DNA of 64,000 bases. Origin: Streptococcus oralis. GTDB lineage: Bacteria > Bacillota > Bacilli > Lactobacillales > Streptococcaceae. A program made the position numbers and the translations under genes. The notes beneath the pieces were generated by a model. That model had not been told where the DNA came from, did no database searches, and saw only the letters and a list, made by a program, of their open reading frames with translations. Of the stretch, positions 38,656-51,990 are shown piece after piece (the first letter of the stretch is position 1; each line of letters begins with the position of its first letter). Location: assembly GCF_024399415.1 (NCBI RefSeq), contig NZ_CP029257.1, positions 1,263,501-1,327,500 of the forward strand, read 5' to 3'.

Positions 38656-40035
38656 TTATTTTTCAGCTGTAAGTGCAGCCATTGTAATGTAATTGTATGG
38701 TTTGTTAAAGTGTGGCAAGAAGAAGAGATCTGTCAAGGCCAATTTATCGATTGTTACATGCTCTTGGATAGCAAGTGAGAACATGTGGATTCCCATACTG
38801 ATAGCTGCATCATGTGAAACCATTTGTGCACCAAGGATTTCGCGGCTGTCTTTATCAAAAACAATCTTGATGGCAACTTCGTGGTTGTCATGTTTGATAA
38901 ATTCTGGTTTTTGAAGATCGTTAAAGCCAGTTTCAGTTGCATTATAGCCTGCAGCTTTGGCTTTTTCAAGAGTCAAACCAGTCGAAACCATGTGAAGACC
39001 GTAGATAGAAATACCGTTTGATCCTTGTACACCAATTCCTTCCAATTCATGTCCACAAGCATTGTAAGCACCAACGATACCAGTACGTACAGCGTTAGAT
39101 GCAAGAGCGATGTAGCTAGTGTCTTTACGAGCATTGTCATAAACAGTTGCACAGTCACCAACAGCGTATACACCTGGGATAGATGTTTCTTGTTTCTTAT
39201 CTACAAGGAAGGCACCGTTACGGAAGAGTTCAATCTTACCATCAGCAAGAGCTGTGTTTGGACGGAAGCCAACAGCAAGAACCACCATATCTACATCAAA
39301 TGTTTCTTTGTCTGTTACCAAGCGTTCAACTTTTCCATCACCTTGGATGGCTTTAACTGTTTGACCAAGAGCCAAGCGGATGTTGTGGTCTTCCAAGTTC
39401 TTCGCCATCATTTGAGTGAAGTCTTTATCATAGTAGCCGTTCAAGACTGTGTCTACGATATCGACAAGTACCACTTCTTTTCCAAGACGCTCAAAGGCTT
39501 CTGCAAGTTCAACACCGATGTAACCACCACCAACAACGGCAATGCGCTCAAGGTGTTTGCTCTTGTCTTCAAGTTTTTCAATAACTTCTTCAGCGTTTTG
39601 GTACAATTTAACAAATTGTACATTTTCAAGAGTCGCTTTGAATTCGCGGTTGCCCTTAACGATTTCAACACCTTCGATTGGAGGCAAGATTGGAGTTGAA
39701 CCAGTTGCAAAGATCAATTTATCATAAGACTCTTTGTGCTCTTTTCCTTCAACTTCTGCAGTCACAACTTTGTTATCGTAGTCAATTGAAAGAACTGGTG
39801 AGTTCATGTAAACTTTAGCACCTTTTGCTTCCAATTTTTCTTTATCAGAGTAGAAGAGACCTTCTGGGCCGTCAATTTGTTCCCCGATCCAAAGCGCCAT
39901 TCCACAACCAAGGAATGAAATATTTGAGTTTTGATCAAATACTACGATTTCGTTCTCATGACCGAAGTTGTCCAACATGGTATTAATACAAGCTGTACCA
40001 GCGTGGTTAGCACCAACTACAACGATTTTACTCAT
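38656..40035 (-). CDS. nox: water-forming NADH oxidase
   Basis: 459 aa flavoprotein of the pyridine nucleotide-disulfide family. FAD site [14 protein letters not shown] at the start; redox cysteine in [13 protein letters not shown] (about C44, the residue that forms a sulfenic acid). The NADH site is [19 protein letters not shown] (about 165-183), the second FAD motif GVYAVGDCA. It reduces oxygen to water with four electrons and regenerates NAD+; in pneumococcus it matters for aerobic growth, competence and virulence. The promoter overlaps a perfect cre site, so it should respond to CcpA. Confidence 0.96.
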
Positions 40036-40073
40036 AGAAAAATTCCTACCTTTAATTTTTGATTTACCTTTCT

Positions 40074-40102
40074 AGTATATCATTTACTGTTAGCGTTTAC
40101 AA
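40074..40102 (-). promoter_or_regulatory. nox promoter
   Basis: Minus strand TTGTAA (40097-40102), 17 nt, TATACT (40074-40079). Confidence 0.82.
40088..40101. promoter_or_regulatory. perfect cre site on the nox promoter
   Basis: TGTTAGCGTTTACA fits TGWNANCGNTNWCA at every fixed position and covers the nox -35 box and half of the spacer. Confidence 0.88.
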
Positions 40103-40223
40103 GGCATTTGCTCAGAATTCTCTTTTTTTCAGAAAAAAATACACTTAACATTGATAAATCCAATTTTTCTATCGTTTTCATATTAATTTTGAGCATATTT
40201 CTTGACTTTTTGTCAAAATTCAT

Positions 40224-40252
40224 TTGTGAAAACGCTGACTTTATGATATGCT
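40224..40252 (+). promoter_or_regulatory. apbE cluster promoter
   Basis: TTGTGA (40224-40229), 17 nt, TATGCT (40247-40252). It opens divergently to nox. Confidence 0.72.
40227..40240. promoter_or_regulatory. cre site on the apbE promoter
   Basis: TGAAAACGCTGACT fits the cre consensus except for the last base. It overlaps the -35 box and spacer, mirroring the nox side. Confidence 0.7.
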
Positions 40253-40342
40253 AGATACATGGAAAGAAAATGTAAGGGGTTTAATTTTTCTTTAACGACC
40301 TTATATTGAATGATTTCCTATAAAGAGAAAGGAGCTGGTAGC

Positions 40343-41290: not shown

Positions 41291-41896
41291 ATGCTAAAAC
41301 TTATTGCCATTGTTGGAACGAACTCTAAACGTTCTACAAACCGCCAATTGCTCCAATACATGCAAAAACACTTTGCAGATAAAGCTGAAATTGAACTCGT
41401 TGAAATTAAGGACATTCCTGTTTTCAACAAACCAGCAGATAAACTTCTTCCTGCTGAAATTCTTGAAATTGCTGCTAAAATTGAAGCATCTGATGGTGTC
41501 ATTATCGGTACTCCTGAGTACGACCACTCTATCCCTGCAGTTTTGATGAGCGCTCTTGCTTGGCTATCTTACGGTATCTACCCACTTTTGAACAAACCAA
41601 TCATGATCACTGGTGCTTCTTACGGTACACTTGGTTCATCTCGTGCCCAATTGCAACTTCGTCAAATCTTGAATGCTCCTGAAATCAAGGCAAATGTTCT
41701 TCCAGATGAATTCTTGCTCTCACACTCTCTTCAAGCATTTAACCCAAGTGGCGACTTGGTTGACCTTGACGTCATCAAGAAATTGGATGCCATCTTTGAT
41801 GACTTCCGTATCTTTGTGAAAATTACTGAAAAATTGCGCAATGCACAAGAATTGCTTCGCAAAGATGCTGAAGAATTTGACTGGGAAAATTTGTAA
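41291..41896 (+). CDS. NAD(P)H-dependent FMN reductase-like flavoprotein
   Basis: 201 aa, flavodoxin-like FMN_red fold. The phosphate loop is VGTNSKRSTNRQ (about 9-20), and the flavin-ring loop is IIGTPEYDHSIPAVL (about 72-86) with ITGASYGTLGSSRAQLQLRQ after it. It is a soluble oxidoreductase likely to pass electrons from NAD(P)H through bound FMN. It is about 45-50 percent alike, by eye, to the N-terminal part of the next gene product, so the two arose by duplication. It lies 18 nt after apbE. Confidence 0.9.
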   Translation: MLKLIAIVGTNSKRSTNRQLLQYMQKHFADKAEIELVEIKDIPVFNKPADKLLPAEILEIAAKIEASDGVIIGTPEYDHSIPAVLMSALAWLSYGIYPLLNKPIMITGASYGTLGSSRAQLQLRQILNAPEIKANVLPDEFLLSHSLQAFNPSGDLVDLDVIKKLDAIFDDFRIFVKITEKLRNAQELLRKDAEEFDWENL

Positions 41897-41913: not shown

Positions 41914-43158
41914 ATGAAATTTGTTGGACTTGTTGGATCAAACTACGATCAATCATATAACCGCAAACTCTTGGAATTTATTCGTCGCAATTTCAAATTC
42001 AAATTTGAATTAGAAGTCCTTGAAATTGACGAAGTTCCAATGTTTAACCAAGACGAAAAATGGGACGAAAGCTTCCAATTGCGTTTCTTGTATAACAAGA
42101 TTACACGTGCTGATGGTGTCATTATCGCTACTCCTGAGCACAACCACACTATCTCAGCTTCACTCAAATCTGTACTCGAATGGCTTTCATACGAAGTTCA
42201 TCCATTTGAAAACAAACCTGTTATGATTGTGGGAGCATCATACTATGACCAAGGAACATCACGTGCCCAAGTTCACCTTCGTAAAATCCTTGATGCTCCA
42301 GGTGTTAATGCCTACACGCTTCCAGGTAACGAATTCCTTCTTGGTAAAGCCAAAGAAGCTTTTGATAACAATGGAAACATCACCAACGAAGGAACTGTTA
42401 AATTCCTTGAAACTTGCTTAGATAACTTTGTTAAATACGTAGGAGTCGTTTCGAAATTGAAAAAACCAAAACCAATCGAACCAGAAGACTTGGATTGTGG
42501 AAAACCAATTGCTACAACCATTACTGAAGTTGATCCTGACGATCCAGAATGGGTAGAAAAAGTTGCAGCAATCACTGGAGCTGTTTCTGGTGATACCTAT
42601 GTCAAACTGGACCACGGTATCCTTACAGTTAACCAAATCGATATGTTCTTGAAAGCTATGCCATTTGAATTGACATACGCTGACGACAACAACCAATTCC
42701 TCTACTACAACAACGCTCACCAAGATCCAGACACCATGTTTGCTAAACGTGTACCACCTCAATCAGGTAGCCGTATGTCGACTGTTCATGGTTCTCTTCC
42801 ACCAGCACGTATGAAGAATGTAGAGTGGGTTATCGGAACACTTCGCAACGGAAACCAAGAATACGTCCGTACGATCGTTCCAGGTTCTCCTGCAGGTGTC
42901 ATCAACACACACAACTACCAAGCAATGTACTATCCTGATGGATCATACGCTGGTATCAATGAAATTGTCTTTAACTTCCAACCATGGCTTGACTGGTACC
43001 TAAAAGAGACTGGTCAACGTTTGGTGGGTGGTAGCGGACCATTTGCCCCTGCTGCTGGAGGTCATGGAGACGCCGATGCTACTTCTGGTGCTTCTGATTC
43101 AGGTGATGCTGGAGGCCACGGTGGTGACGCTGACGCTACTTCTGGTGCAAGCAACTAA
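41914..43158 (+). CDS. FMN reductase/PAS-like fusion with two C-terminal flavinylation tags
   Basis: 414 aa. Residues 1-180: FMN_red flavodoxin-like domain (GLVGSNYDQSYNRK, IIATPEHNHTISASL, VGASYYDQGTSRAQ). Residues 181-235: linker. Residues about 235-360 resemble the PAS-type domain at the C-terminus of DUF438 proteins (LTVNQIDMFLKAMPFELTYA, later VHGSLPPARM and RNGNQEYVRT). Residues 375-414: Gly/Asp/Ala tail with DADATSGAS twice (386-394 and 405-413). DxxSGA(S/T) is the ApbE target motif, with FMN carried on the last Ser/Thr. So it may bear two covalent FMN groups plus one bound FMN. It is in one operon with apbE (18-nt gaps). The redox partner is unknown. Confidence 0.85.
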   Translation: MKFVGLVGSNYDQSYNRKLLEFIRRNFKFKFELEVLEIDEVPMFNQDEKWDESFQLRFLYNKITRADGVIIATPEHNHTISASLKSVLEWLSYEVHPFENKPVMIVGASYYDQGTSRAQVHLRKILDAPGVNAYTLPGNEFLLGKAKEAFDNNGNITNEGTVKFLETCLDNFVKYVGVVSKLKKPKPIEPEDLDCGKPIATTITEVDPDDPEWVEKVAAITGAVSGDTYVKLDHGILTVNQIDMFLKAMPFELTYADDNNQFLYYNNAHQDPDTMFAKRVPPQSGSRMSTVHGSLPPARMKNVEWVIGTLRNGNQEYVRTIVPGSPAGVINTHNYQAMYYPDGSYAGINEIVFNFQPWLDWYLKETGQRLVGGSGPFAPAAGGHGDADATSGASDSGDAGGHGGDADATSGASN

Positions 43159-43164
43159 GAAACC

Positions 43165-43194
43165 AAAAAGGAGCCAAATGGTTCCTTCTTTTTT
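43165..43194 (+). terminator. terminator of the apbE cluster
   Basis: AAGGAGCC, AAAT, GGTTCCTT then CTTTTTT. Confidence 0.88.
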
Positions 43195-47478: not shown

Positions 47479-50400
47479 TTAAGGATGTCTTCTTGCTTTT
47501 GGTTTTTTGCCATGTAGATTTCTCTTGGCTTGTTTCAATGCTGTAATGGCATCTTTGACATCTTCTTGGCTCGCTCCTGGATCTTTAAGGAGTTCCTGTG
47601 CCTCTTTAAAGGTTAGGAGATAAGCTGCTTTTTCTTTCTTGTCTGCATAGATAAATCTCGCGTTCTTTTCTTGGAAAAGGCGTTCATCTTTGACCAGTTT
47701 CTTCAGACTAGAGAAGTCAGTAGCTTTGCCATTTAGTTTGCTTTTAGCTGTTGCTAGGGCAATGAGAGATTGGTCAATTTGATCCTGTTTAACTTTAGGA
47801 TCCACAGCTAGTAAGGCGATTTCTTGGAAGGCACGATCATAAGCTCGACGTACTTTTTCCTTAGCATTAGCATATCGTCCAGTTTTAGTCGTTGCATAGT
47901 AAGCTTTCATAGCTTCTTTCAAGGCTGTAACGTTCGAATCTTTTCCATCCAAAGCCTTACCAGCAACTTCAAGACTAGCAAGAACACCATCAATCAATTC
48001 TTGCTTCAACTTGCTTGACAAGGCTGACTGTGCCACTTGGAAAGCTTGGTCATAAGCTTTTCTCTTATCTGCACTACTATTAAAGTAACGAGACGTTTCT
48101 ACCAGTTCTTTTTGTTGATTTACCGCAGCAATCAAGGCCAACTTAGACACAACAGATAGACGCAAAGCATTATTTCGACCTGGCTTCACGAGCAAGGAAA
48201 CGAGATCTTCAAGGAGTTCATATCCAGTTGGCAAGGTGACTTGTACAGTATAACGACCTGTAGCAACTTTCTTACCAAAGGCGTATTGACCGTATTTTTC
48301 AGCAGGAAGAGTGATACTTGTCCCATCTTCTCCTTTCAGAACCACTGTAGTCGTCTTTGGAACTGCTTGATTGAAGGAAACAGACACAGGTGCATATTCT
48401 AAGAGATTTGCTAGGAAGGTAATGGTTTGGAAACTATTTTCTTCAGTCAAGTCAAACTCTTGGGACAAGGCACTGATAAATTTCAATTCTGTTCGGTCAT
48501 AACTGAAAATTTCTGCTGTATAATGACCAAACTGTAAGAAATGAATCGCTTTTGTCTTGTCAACATCAACATATTGTCCCTTGCTATTTTTGATTCGATA
48601 GACGTAGAGGGTATCAATATCTTGGTTTGTTTTTGCATCCTTCAAGGCAATTTTCACTCGACCACTATTTTGATCGCGTACAAGTTCAGCAAGTGAGATA
48701 TAATCTACATTTCCTGCATAGTCCTCAACAAGATAGTAAATATTAGCCTTGTCAACATCCTTAGGAAGTGTATAACTACCATCAGCATTGGCTTTGATCA
48801 GATGGGTGTTCTCAAGCGCACGAGTTCCAGACTGGTCTTTCCCAGATAGAATCATGGTCCCTTTCTGGTCAAATGGTGTGATATAGAAGACTTTTTCTGA
48901 AAGGATACCGCCTTGACCCACATCTTTTGGTTTGCGAGCTACGAATTCTTGGTTTCCATCTTTAAAGCGAATATAACCACTTGTGATGACAGGTTTTTGA
49001 GTATCAATTTGAATCTTAAAGGTCGTATATTGTTCTTTGGCTCCTGGAACATCTGGTGTGTAACTAATAACATAGTCATATAAACCATCTGCAACAGTAT
49101 TCCCATCAAAATCCTGGCCTCTCCAAGCAGTATTATCTAGAATATAACTCTTCAGATTTCTACTGTCTCCATCAAAATAATTCTTACGAAGATCCTTTGC
49201 ATCACCCTCCCAAATAGGATGTTCATGCTTGGTATCCGTAGCCGCATAAACTGTAGCCCGAAGATTTACAAGATTTCTCAAAGCAACCGTTTTGTATTCA
49301 ACTAGGTCTTTGTTTCCATCATCATTTGGAGAAATGGCAATACGGACATTCCCTTTTTCGTCCAACTGAAGAACATGCTTACCTTCAGCATTTTGTTCGA
49401 TTCCAAGAACGGTAATTCGGCGTCCTTGGCGTTGACCTTTAGACACTAGAAGGTCATTTTGCAAGGTAGCTAGATAGGTAGCATCATTAGAGTAGTTAAC
49501 GGCGGGATTTTCTTTGTCTACTTCCGTGTAAAATCCATTTTTCCCTTCTCGGACAAGATTGTAAATTGGTTTTTCGACAGCAGGGAGATTTTGGAATTCT
49601 CCTCGGAAGCCCATAAATGCAAGACTCACAATATCCCCATCATCTGCTGGATCTACAAATCTAACAAAACCTTCAAGGAAATAGCCATTTGGCATTTGTT
49701 TGCTGAGTTCAGCAGCAAATTTTCGAGCATCCACTTTAACAGTGACTGTTTGACTGCTGTGGGCTTTGACTGTCACTTCAGGCCAGACTGTCTCCGTTAG
49801 TTTTCGAGGTCGAAGGGTGAATTTTCCATCTTGGACTTCGTCTGTATTGGTATTCACTACCATCTTGAGAGTACGGTCAGTATCTGAAATGTTGTGTACA
49901 GTAACCTTGAAAGTAAATTGATCTCCAACATTTCCTAAAGTCACGCTTGGATAACCATTTTCACCTGTTACATAGAGGTCGGTTGAAACTGCAGCAGCAG
50001 TATCCACAATCCCAGAGCCTTGCTGACGAGGAGAGGTATAAGTGCCTGTATCCTTATTAACATGTGGTTTTGCAGTTGACATGATCAAGGCCTTGACAGT
50101 CTCTGATACTTGCTCAGGAGTCAATTCTGGATGGTGTTTTTGAAGGTATTCCTTAACCAGAACTGCAACACCCGTAACGTGAGGAGCCGCCATACTGGTT
50201 CCGCTGATACTTCCATAGGTATTGTCATTAAAGGATGAATAGATATTGCCACCAGGAGCTGTCACGTCCGGTTTCAATTGTCCATCGGTAGTCACTCCCC
50301 AACTTGAAAAGTCAGATAGCTGATTGGCTACATCGGAAGGGCGATTATCCATCTTGTCATTAAAAACAATCTTGTAGTTTCCTGATTTTAAGGCTTCACC

Positions 50401-51990
50401 ATACTGTTTAGAAATAAATACTGAAGGAATTTTCTTTGCTTCATCATCAATAGCCATATTGATGTTTGCACCTTCTACATTATTGTAGATCAAAGCACCA
50501 ACTGCACCGTGTTTTCGTGCATTTTTGATCTTCTCTGAAAAGTTCATGGCTCCACGCTGAATGAGGGCAAGTTTCCCAGTTAAATCCAACTTCGCAAAGT
50601 CTTCTTCACGACCTAACCCTGCTTCGACGTATTCGTACTCTTTTCCTTTTTCAAAGTCCTTATCTGCTTCAGGTTGATTATAATCAAATTTTCCGTTATG
50701 AAGGCCGGCATTTCCCTCTAGACCTTTAACTTCAAAAACGGCTGTTGTCAATGTTTTATTGTTGACAGAAGCAACTGAAATTGAGTCTTCAACAGTGGAT
50801 GGATTTCCAACCAAGCCATAGTCTGGGTTTTCGGCTAGCGGTTTTGAATAACCATTTCCGAATGTATTGCTATTTCCTGCTGAGATAAGAACAGACACTC
50901 CCTTGGCACGAGCCCGTTTGATGGCATCCACAATATCGGAACCAGCATCCACCATAGAACCAGTGCTAGATCCTAAACTCATATTAATGGCATCTGCTCC
51001 TAAGGCAACTGCGTCATCAATCGCCTTTACATAAAGGGCAGAACTGGTCGTTTTTTGGCGATCTGAAAAGACACGCATAAACATGACTTGGGCTTCTGGC
51101 GCAACACCATAGACCTTTTCACCATTTGGTGCTTCTTTATCAGGGTTTCCAGCAGCAATCCCTGTTACGTGCATCCCATGAGAAGTTCTTTCTGCTTCTT
51201 TGATTTTATCTGTTCCGTCAAAGTAATCGTAGGCATAGACAACCTTATCACTATACCATTTACCGTAGTCGATTCCAGCAGCCTTTTTAGCTGCTTCGAT
51301 GGCTTCCTTGTTTTTAAATTTTGCTTTTGACGGATCCGAAATTCGAAGAACCTCATGATTCAAATCAAGCCCAGAATCAATTATGGCAACAACGGTCCCT
51401 GTCCCCTTGTAACCAGCCTTCCAAGTTTTTGGTACTGTGATGATATCATTGCTTGAAAGACTATTGGGTTTTGCAGACTCAGCTTTTTCTTGTTCTTTTT
51501 CAGTAGTTACTGTTTCTCCAGTAGTTTTAGGAGCTGTCGTTGCTTGAGCCTCTTTGTTCTCTATGTTAGAAGCCTTCTCAGTAGCAGGCGCTGTACTGGT
51601 ATCGACTGTTGTTTCTTTTTGGACGACACCTTGGTCTACTTCTTTTGCAACTGCGCTATCTTTTCCTGATTCTTGAGCTTCAGCAGTTTTATCAACCGGA
51701 GCTTCCACCTTAGCTTCTTGTTTACTAGCATCCTCTTTAGAAGTTTCAGCTTCTTGTTTCTCTCCAACTACTGGAGCTATCACATTAGTATTGGTTTGGT
51801 CAGTCGCAGAGTTTGAGTGTTTATCGTCTTTTAGCTCTGTCTTAATTTCCTGAGTTTGTGCTTGATTTTCACCTGTACTCTGCTCATTGGCACTGACTTG
51901 ACTTGCTCCAAAAACCAATGCAGTTCCCAATAAAACTGAAGCAAGACCAAATTTGTATTTCCTTAATGAAAAACGTTGTCGTCTATTCAT
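47479..51990 (-). CDS. subtilisin-like (S8) surface serine protease, PrtA/C5a-peptidase type
   Basis: 1503 aa. YSIRK-type signal peptide (FSLRKYKFGLASVLLG, about 7-34), Thr/Glu/Lys-rich prodomain (35-180), then an S8 domain with catalytic Asp about 205 (AIIDSGLD), His about 271 (TSHGMHVTG), Asn about 373 and Ser about 599 (ISGTSMAAPHVTG). A PA domain is inserted at about 420-550. Fn3-like domains follow (about 680-1150). Three helical FIVAR-like repeats fill about 1290-1495. It ends KPKARRHP: no LPXTG motif or hydrophobic tail, unlike many relatives, so how it stays on the wall is unclear. It probably cleaves host or bacterial surface proteins. Confidence 0.9.
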   Translation of the reverse strand: MNRRQRFSLRKYKFGLASVLLGTALVFGASQVSANEQSTGENQAQTQEIKTELKDDKHSNSATDQTNTNVIAPVVGEKQEAETSKEDASKQEAKVEAPVDKTAEAQESGKDSAVAKEVDQGVVQKETTVDTSTAPATEKASNIENKEAQATTAPKTTGETVTTEKEQEKAESAKPNSLSSNDIITVPKTWKAGYKGTGTVVAIIDSGLDLNHEVLRISDPSKAKFKNKEAIEAAKKAAGIDYGKWYSDKVVYAYDYFDGTDKIKEAERTSHGMHVTGIAAGNPDKEAPNGEKVYGVAPEAQVMFMRVFSDRQKTTSSALYVKAIDDAVALGADAINMSLGSSTGSMVDAGSDIVDAIKRARAKGVSVLISAGNSNTFGNGYSKPLAENPDYGLVGNPSTVEDSISVASVNNKTLTTAVFEVKGLEGNAGLHNGKFDYNQPEADKDFEKGKEYEYVEAGLGREEDFAKLDLTGKLALIQRGAMNFSEKIKNARKHGAVGALIYNNVEGANINMAIDDEAKKIPSVFISKQYGEALKSGNYKIVFNDKMDNRPSDVANQLSDFSSWGVTTDGQLKPDVTAPGGNIYSSFNDNTYGSISGTSMAAPHVTGVAVLVKEYLQKHHPELTPEQVSETVKALIMSTAKPHVNKDTGTYTSPRQQGSGIVDTAAAVSTDLYVTGENGYPSVTLGNVGDQFTFKVTVHNISDTDRTLKMVVNTNTDEVQDGKFTLRPRKLTETVWPEVTVKAHSSQTVTVKVDARKFAAELSKQMPNGYFLEGFVRFVDPADDGDIVSLAFMGFRGEFQNLPAVEKPIYNLVREGKNGFYTEVDKENPAVNYSNDATYLATLQNDLLVSKGQRQGRRITVLGIEQNAEGKHVLQLDEKGNVRIAISPNDDGNKDLVEYKTVALRNLVNLRATVYAATDTKHEHPIWEGDAKDLRKNYFDGDSRNLKSYILDNTAWRGQDFDGNTVADGLYDYVISYTPDVPGAKEQYTTFKIQIDTQKPVITSGYIRFKDGNQEFVARKPKDVGQGGILSEKVFYITPFDQKGTMILSGKDQSGTRALENTHLIKANADGSYTLPKDVDKANIYYLVEDYAGNVDYISLAELVRDQNSGRVKIALKDAKTNQDIDTLYVYRIKNSKGQYVDVDKTKAIHFLQFGHYTAEIFSYDRTELKFISALSQEFDLTEENSFQTITFLANLLEYAPVSVSFNQAVPKTTTVVLKGEDGTSITLPAEKYGQYAFGKKVATGRYTVQVTLPTGYELLEDLVSLLVKPGRNNALRLSVVSKLALIAAVNQQKELVETSRYFNSSADKRKAYDQAFQVAQSALSSKLKQELIDGVLASLEVAGKALDGKDSNVTALKEAMKAYYATTKTGRYANAKEKVRRAYDRAFQEIALLAVDPKVKQDQIDQSLIALATAKSKLNGKATDFSSLKKLVKDERLFQEKNARFIYADKKEKAAYLLTFKEAQELLKDPGASQEDVKDAITALKQAKRNLHGKKPKARRHP

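Follow-up and report, generated by a model that had tools for sequence, protein, structure and literature searches.

P0001, a protein of Streptococcus oralis, was found by Pfam scan to consist of an FMN reductase domain (FMN_red), a linker, a PAS_10 domain and a Gly/His-rich tail that carries the tags, two copies of the target motif of the FMN transferase ApbE. It is encoded in the 64,000-nucleotide stretch of DNA analysed here (the window), and the tagged FMN_red-PAS fusion is widespread in Lactobacillales. The tags of P0001 are, from their motif and gene context, very likely flavinylated, and we infer a relay role for the tail FMNs: it is proposed, with moderate confidence, that in FMN_red/PAS/tag proteins the FMNs tethered to the linkers pass electrons from the NAD(P)H:FMN reductase to the PAS domain. 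Tail-flavinylated FMN_red proteins are already known (PMC11334425, main text), and the tags make P0001 a member of that kind. The fusion with PAS_10, the long tag arrays, the SSAS variant of the motif, and the split and repeated PAS-tag modules go further than that text.

The tagged protein and its locus

Translation of the P0001 reading frame located DADATSGAS at residues 386-394 and 405-413, just where the initial annotation had placed it, and apbE indeed lies two genes 5′ (Table 1). The earlier description of the protein as FMN reductase-like stood as well (PF03358), but was incomplete, the PAS_10 domain having been overlooked. The closest named matches are S. oralis strains, whose best segments are 100% identical. 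The three genes run in one direction, with gaps of 18 bases between apbE and the small FMN_red gene and 17 bases between the latter and the tagged gene. For the terminator-like hairpin that follows, it is the position and not the count that carries the argument (3 such sites in the region, against 2.4 expected by chance). Further along, at 47479-51990 on the minus strand, lies what is presumably a 1503-residue subtilase-like surface protein, with a YSIRK-type signal and an ORF end without LPxTG.

Table 1. Features of the apbE locus, in window coordinates
Feature	Position	Strand	Evidence
H2O-forming NADH oxidase, divergent neighbour	38656..40035	-	NF046103, 767 bits (cut-off 600)
apbE, FAD:protein FMN transferase, 320 aa	40310..41272	+	PF02424, E 1.1e-76
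Small FMN_red, 201 aa, lacking both tag and PAS	41291..41896	+	PF03358, E 6.5e-34
Tagged protein P0001, 414 aa + stop	41914..43158	+	Translation, Pfam
FMN_red domain, residues 1-147	41914..42354	+	PF03358, E 1.9e-33, 115.6 bits (cut-off 24)
PAS_10 domain, residues 242-355	42637..42978	+	PF13596, E 7.8e-21; PDB 2qkp, E 8.7e-10
Tag 1, DATSGAS, residues 388-394, predicted FMN acceptor S394	43075..43095	+	Motif match
Tag 2, DATSGAS, residues 407-413, predicted FMN acceptor S413	43132..43152	+	Motif match
Terminator-like hairpin, then T run, directly 3′ of the tagged gene	43168..43187	+	

The FMN_red domain of P0001 aligns with reductases of the ChrR/YieF type (PDB 1rtt, 3u7r and 3svl; E 3e-17 to 1e-16), and the small FMN_red is likely the partner of the tagged reductase. 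The ApbE of the locus, the single PF02424 match in the whole 2.0-Mb genome, is predicted to be of the cytosolic type, as neither a signal peptide nor a lipobox is visible at its N-terminus; the lipobox pattern was also absent from all 46 neighbouring ApbE frames in the loci of relatives. P0001 itself is predicted to be cytosolic, i.e., not exported: by reading, FMN_red begins at residue 1, which leaves no room for a signal peptide. In the proposed scheme, apbE, the small FMN_red and P0001 would form one cytosolic redox module, in which ApbE would attach FMN to S394 and S413 through a phosphoester bond. The FMN_red domain of P0001, probably dimerised with the small FMN_red, would take hydride from NAD(P)H onto a non-covalent FMN and pass electrons to the tethered FMNs of the flexible tail, and these would swing as short-range carriers to PAS_10, or to an acceptor docking there. 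The FMN occupancy, the dimer partner, the direction of electron flow and the role of the PAS domain are all presumptive elements of this scheme.

Residues 225-372 of P0001 contain no cysteine, and the PAS domain hence lacks the photoactive Cys of LOV domains; in many relatives a Cys precedes the conserved His (CHP). The nearest solved relatives of the PAS domain, PDB 2qkp and 3cax, are uncharacterised proteins. An FMN_bind domain (PF04205) was found neither in P0001, where only FMN_red and PAS_10 score above cut-off, nor among the domains listed for 25 members of the family. AlphaFold models had confidence too low for use, both for full-length P0001 (pLDDT 46.9, 32 similar rows) and for the PAS piece (pLDDT 38.5, 20 rows).

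A second candidate ApbE target is encoded in the same genome. At C1:1790196-1791602 (L005, L088, L089), a small FMN_red gene precedes an FMN_red-FMN_bind-FAD_binding_2 reductase that carries DAVSGAS and that we take to be of the fumarate/urocanate-reductase type. As in P0001, an FMN_red domain is joined to a module with an ApbE tag, and a small FMN_red gene lies on the 5′ side; unlike P0001, the reductase has one tag, placed inside FMN_bind, and then an FAD domain instead of PAS_10, so that a covalent FMN would lie between the reductase and the FAD domain. This shared gene order speaks in favour of the relay. Since the only apbE of the genome is far from this locus, one ApbE would have to serve both.

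Tag variation and co-occurrence with ApbE

The tags were scored by the core motif D-x-x-[ST]-G-A-[ST], which starts at residues 388 and 407 of P0001. At least two motifs arose in 10 of 200,000 shuffles of the 42 tail residues, and the two in P0001 were the sole matches in ATG-started ORFs of at least 100 aa in the window (20,099 aa, six frames). In the whole 2.0-Mb genome, 22 matches to the DNA pattern reduced to four in-frame motifs (frames counted from the first ATG and at least 60 aa long, or running off the 3-kb stretch): two in P0001, a third in the FMN_bind reductase and a fourth in a large repeat protein, which is taken for a chance match. A chance origin of the P0001 tags was rejected on the tail shuffles and this genome-wide count. 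Among orthologues, 139 tails have 252 canonical motifs against 1.22 expected from residue shuffles.

Tags were counted in 140 orthologues, comprising 80 Streptococcus and 60 other Lactobacillales proteins. The Streptococcus set was formed by the best 80 of 191 relatives from a scan of named genomes, all titled Streptococcus. When tags of the looser form D..[STA][GSA]A[ST] (the relaxed pattern) are included, 139 of the 140 have at least one Asp-containing tag; in the remaining one, a non-Streptococcus protein, Asp is replaced in both tags and the acceptor serines are kept. Residues 1-355 hold no canonical tag in any of the 140. Tag number was predicted to vary, and it does: among the best 80 Streptococcus proteins, canonical tags number two in 74, three in two, one in three and zero in one, and the 60 other proteins range from zero (15) through one (13), two (13), three (13) and four (5) to six (1). 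By the relaxed pattern, the same 60 have zero (1), one (1), two (19), three (28), four (10) or seven (1).

The variation outside Streptococcus falls mainly on one residue. Alongside 104 perfect tags in the 60 proteins, the single-mismatch tags comprise 62 with Gly changed to Ser, two with a changed Asp, one changed at position 4 and none changed at Ala6 or the acceptor; a further six are altered at positions 4 and 5 jointly, the one type of double variant counted. Only non-Gly tags are present in 14 of the 60 proteins, and apbE is kept within the fetched stretch in 12 of these 14. The SSAS tags look selected and are read as a working variant rather than as decay, because decay would strike all positions and the changes fall almost only at Gly; decay of the tags in non-streptococci was rejected on the same ground. 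Across 139 proteins, 322 tags have Ser as the acceptor and seven have Thr, although Thr is reportedly the acceptor preferred by ApbE (PMC12052999). In the Klebsiella pneumoniae fumarate reductase, flavinylation fell to about half after a Gly-to-Ala change and was little affected when Asp was lost (PMC12052999). Four proteins count against reading SSAS as a working variant: that of Streptococcus sp. DD10 (L072), in which Gly is gone from both tags (DATASAS and DATSSAS) next to an adjoining apbE, the streptococcal orthologues L052 and L071, with one intact tag each, and the orthologue without Asp. The DD10 protein, with its adjoining apbE, also constitutes a natural test of the motif, and the SSAS tags in general make it easy to test whether ApbE accepts a looser motif.

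That the tail merely binds metal or aids solubility, the motif being incidental or unmodified, is scarcely credible. The Gly/His-rich spacers of Streptococcus speak for such a role, but they are typical of this genus and its nearest relatives; distant genera keep the tags and not the spacer, which varies freely across genera, and the strict co-occurrence with ApbE also argues against it. A Gly/His metal-binding tail was rejected because the spacers are not conserved across genera.

A constant association with apbE had been expected from the initial annotation, and it was borne out. In an order sample of 295 genomes, 83 non-Streptococcus and 37 Streptococcus genomes had a full-length protein, defined as a match over FMN_red and PAS (long matches to E 4.4e-88); ApbE was present in all 120 and absent from 31 of the 295 genomes (hypergeometric 2.8e-8, with shared ancestry ignored). 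Outside Streptococcus, genomes of this sample average 1.92 ApbE matches with the protein and 1.02 without it. A genome with the tail and without apbE, which had been named as the finding that would speak against flavinylation, occurred neither among these 295 nor among 147 genomes of the genus. Three of the latter have no ApbE match (G040, G052 and G054), and in these no match to the tagged protein was better than E 2.9e-6.

At the level of the locus, apbE lies within the fetched stretch in 79 of the 80 Streptococcus loci (best 80 of 191 relatives), the exception, S. vestibularis, applying to the stretch only, and the small FMN_red gene lies 5′ of the tagged gene in all 80. In three Streptococcus genomes (G082, G113 and G142), apbE and the tagged gene share a contig but lie far apart. 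Outside the genus, 60 of the 83 loci were fetched; the small FMN_red is 5′ of the tagged gene in 59, and apbE is in the stretch in 47, of which 46 have it in the same orientation as the tagged gene (once downstream) and one in the opposite orientation. No full-length match was found outside Lactobacillales in a class sample of 299 genomes, in which five matches beyond the order at E 1e-60 span only residues 1-183 to 1-189. The tagged gene is broken by a stop or matched piecewise in three genomes (G063, G124 and G133) and at one plasmid locus (L224).

Domain arrangements and the proposed role of the tethered flavins

The published model for such proteins differs from a relay. Lactococcus FMN_red tails with one or two motifs (Lactococcus lactis WP_021723379.1 and L. 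taiwanensis WP_205872264.1) were flavinylated in vitro, Ser-to-Ala changes abolished the modification, and the tag FMN was read as sitting in the reductase's own flavin site (PMC11334425, mSystems 2024, main text). Extended to the present family, the tail FMN would fill the FMN_red site of the same dimer and the extra tags would raise the local FMN concentration, with no relay. This is regarded as rather doubtful as a general account, even with the in vitro data behind it, the alignment of conserved FMN_red residues with solved FMN reductases, and the existence of short proteins with a single tag. Most proteins carry two to four tags per reductase domain, and some up to nine; the last tags of three-PAS proteins are nearly 700 residues away from the reductase; PAS-tail proteins exist without a reductase domain; and a cytosolic protein would presumably have little need to prevent the loss of FMN.

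Short tagged FMN_red proteins (198-337 aa, no PAS, one to four tags) were found at nine of the ten loci L186-L195, from two genera of the family (g81 and g75). Genus g81 is probably Lactococcus, because the tail at L196 nearly matches that of an L. lactis plasmid protein. The apbE gene adjoins the short tagged gene at eight of the nine loci, and none was found in the stretch of L195. Six of these nine loci also have a stand-alone PAS gene (~160 aa), located after apbE in five and directly after the tagged gene at L195; the one member scanned matched PAS_10 with E 2.2e-18. At L186, L192 and L193, a single tag follows the reductase and no PAS gene was found in the fetched stretch. These three fit anchoring and count against a relay. 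Anchoring is thus possible for short one-tag proteins; it poorly explains nine tags per reductase or PAS-tails without a reductase.

The opposite extreme is formed by three proteins (L248, L249 and L250) with six to nine tags per chain. Behind FMN_red, two of them have three PAS domains each, and the third has two and an additional fragment. The 882-residue three-PAS protein has nine tags, two after the reductase, three after PAS1, two after PAS2 and two after PAS3, and its PAS repeats are 67-73% identical to one another; the other two proteins have eight and six tags. A relay is favoured over one anchored cofactor because the tags outnumber the reductase domains and follow each domain of the two three-PAS proteins. 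The most apt description of the tagged family is one of folded domains in alternation with linkers that bear FMN.

PAS domains with tags also occur without a reductase. The viral contig L206 encodes PAS and two tags, and a search with this query found PAS-tail genes in 12 genomes of one genus of another family (E below 1e-100). Of the five loci fetched from these 12 (L253-L257), four encode proteins of 245-246 aa with three relaxed tags each, and the fifth gene is shorter, with a stop. Neither apbE nor FMN_red was found in the wide flanks of these five loci, which count against the relay. In the same search, ApbE was present in all 136 genomes with a PAS match at E 1e-20. Further stand-alone PAS-tail genes, of ~230 aa with two tags, were observed at L251 and L252, the former ~1.6 kb from the apbE of a full module. 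The PAS domain is tied to the tags because six loci divide the tagged FMN_red and the PAS domain between two genes and PAS-tails exist without a reductase.

That tie could be closer than the relay supposes: the pocket of PAS_10 might dock the tag FMN, PAS plus tag being equal to FMN_bind and fed by FMN_red. The PAS-tag unit does occur by itself (L206, L253-L257), and some proteins have two or three copies of it, with tags after each PAS; PAS columns are about as conserved as those of the reductase (0.73 vs 0.76). Engineered LOV proteins, of the PAS superfamily, take an FMN attached by ApbE at a carved site, and the flavin keeps its normal position (PMC10722498, in part). This docking is nonetheless thought unlikely, in view of the usual two or three tags per PAS pocket, the six loci at which an untagged gene of its own encodes PAS and the reductase carries the tags, and a tag-free 444-residue protein of the P0001 genome with a similar PAS region (E 1.3e-10), which shows that a PAS of this type can occur without tags.

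A broader formulation, offered tentatively and as possible rather than probable, is that PAS_10 and its tags together make up a so far undescribed module for electron transfer by covalent flavin, the equivalent of FMN_bind in the cytosol, and that ApbE accepts DxxSSAS. The PAS_10-tag module would then occur joined to an NAD(P)H:FMN reductase, on a gene separate from it, or in several copies after it. The resulting flavin wires inside the cell would hold as many as nine FMNs on one chain, attached by a cytosolic ApbE. One main role proposed for flavinylation by ApbE is to stop flavin from diffusing away outside the cytosol (PMC11334425, main text). A widespread, predicted-cytosolic family with tag arrays in its linkers is unexplained by this role, and the arrays point to flavinylation as a way to build short intracellular electron wires. 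The family also supplies a natural series (one to nine tags, one to three PAS domains, fused or split) for testing electron movement by tethered flavins.

Known systems, mobile elements and regulation

The Firmicutes FMN_red proteins of PMC11334425 resemble P0001 in the PF03358 domain, the C-terminal extension with the motif and the gene beside apbE. The PAS_10 insert, the arrays of up to nine tags, the SSAS tags and the split or repeated modules go beyond the one to two motifs described there, and the main text of that paper mentions neither PAS, PF13596 nor plasmids. WP_021723379.1 was not found on the two Lactococcus lactis A12 plasmids examined. Multi-flavinylated FMN-bind proteins (PMC8238504; SaFMN3 and CbFMN4, PMC10339131) likewise bear several ApbE-attached FMNs per chain, and such chains were suggested to carry electrons over distance (PMC8238504). 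As far as these sources were consulted, they are secreted and hold each FMN in an FMN-bind domain, whereas P0001 has no FMN_bind, is predicted to be cytosolic and has its tags in linkers or tails. The K. pneumoniae fumarate reductase is modified in the cytosol by an ApbE that has no signal peptide, as is predicted for the present proteins; it is soluble, and no FMN_red-PAS-tail architecture is mentioned in the parts of PMC12052999 consulted, a review according to which a seven-residue motif suffices for ApbE. In the engineered LOV and nitroreductase proteins (PMC10722498, in part), a covalent FMN placed by ApbE also serves a PAS-superfamily or reductase fold. Those are man-made, with the motif inside the fold and a carved site, whereas P0001 is natural, with the motif outside the fold and a PAS domain without cysteine. 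No PAS-bearing flavinylated reductase was found among the titles and abstract openings searched. In a pneumococcal table, SP1470-71 are given as apbE and azr_1 under thiamine biosynthesis (PMC11559097, in part); we infer that these are the same genes as here, and the relay reading would give a streptococcal operon a function.

The module is also carried by mobile elements. Eight Lactococcus records matched, and each of the three intact L. lactis plasmid copies fetched from these has all three genes together. The Lactococcus plasmids (L182, L183 and L185) are typed as conjugative or mobilizable and have a Crp/Fnr regulator near the module, and on an Enterococcus faecium plasmid typed as non-mobilizable (L184) the module lies between IS1216 copies. 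A plasmid search with the short tagged FMN_red gave no match above 60% identity. In a phage collection, 11 records match the tagged protein, among them two unannotated Enterococcus phage records that cover ~90% of it at 54-59% identity.

PAS is mostly a sensor fold, and through the tail FMNs the domain might sense the NAD(P)H state and change its shape or partner, electron transfer then serving signalling rather than metabolism. At 28 of 71 loci (e.g., L166:6502-7509), with none found at the Streptococcus loci among the 71, the module is preceded in the same orientation by a gene matching the regulator of the E. faecium plasmid; a Pfam scan of one member gave HTH_3 and TPR domains. This gene and the Crp/Fnr regulator of the Lactococcus plasmids would suit a sensor; no output domain is fused to the PAS domain in the 25 members scanned, and a sensor role is considered very improbable. 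Rex-type matches number six in the window, against 7.75 expected, with none between nox and apbE, and Fnr/Flp-type matches (at most two mismatches) number 93 in the window, with none within 40036-40309. The palindrome TTGATNNNNATCAA, allowing at most two mismatches, is over-represented in the window, with 93 occurrences against 65 expected, a count reached in 0 of 100 shuffles.
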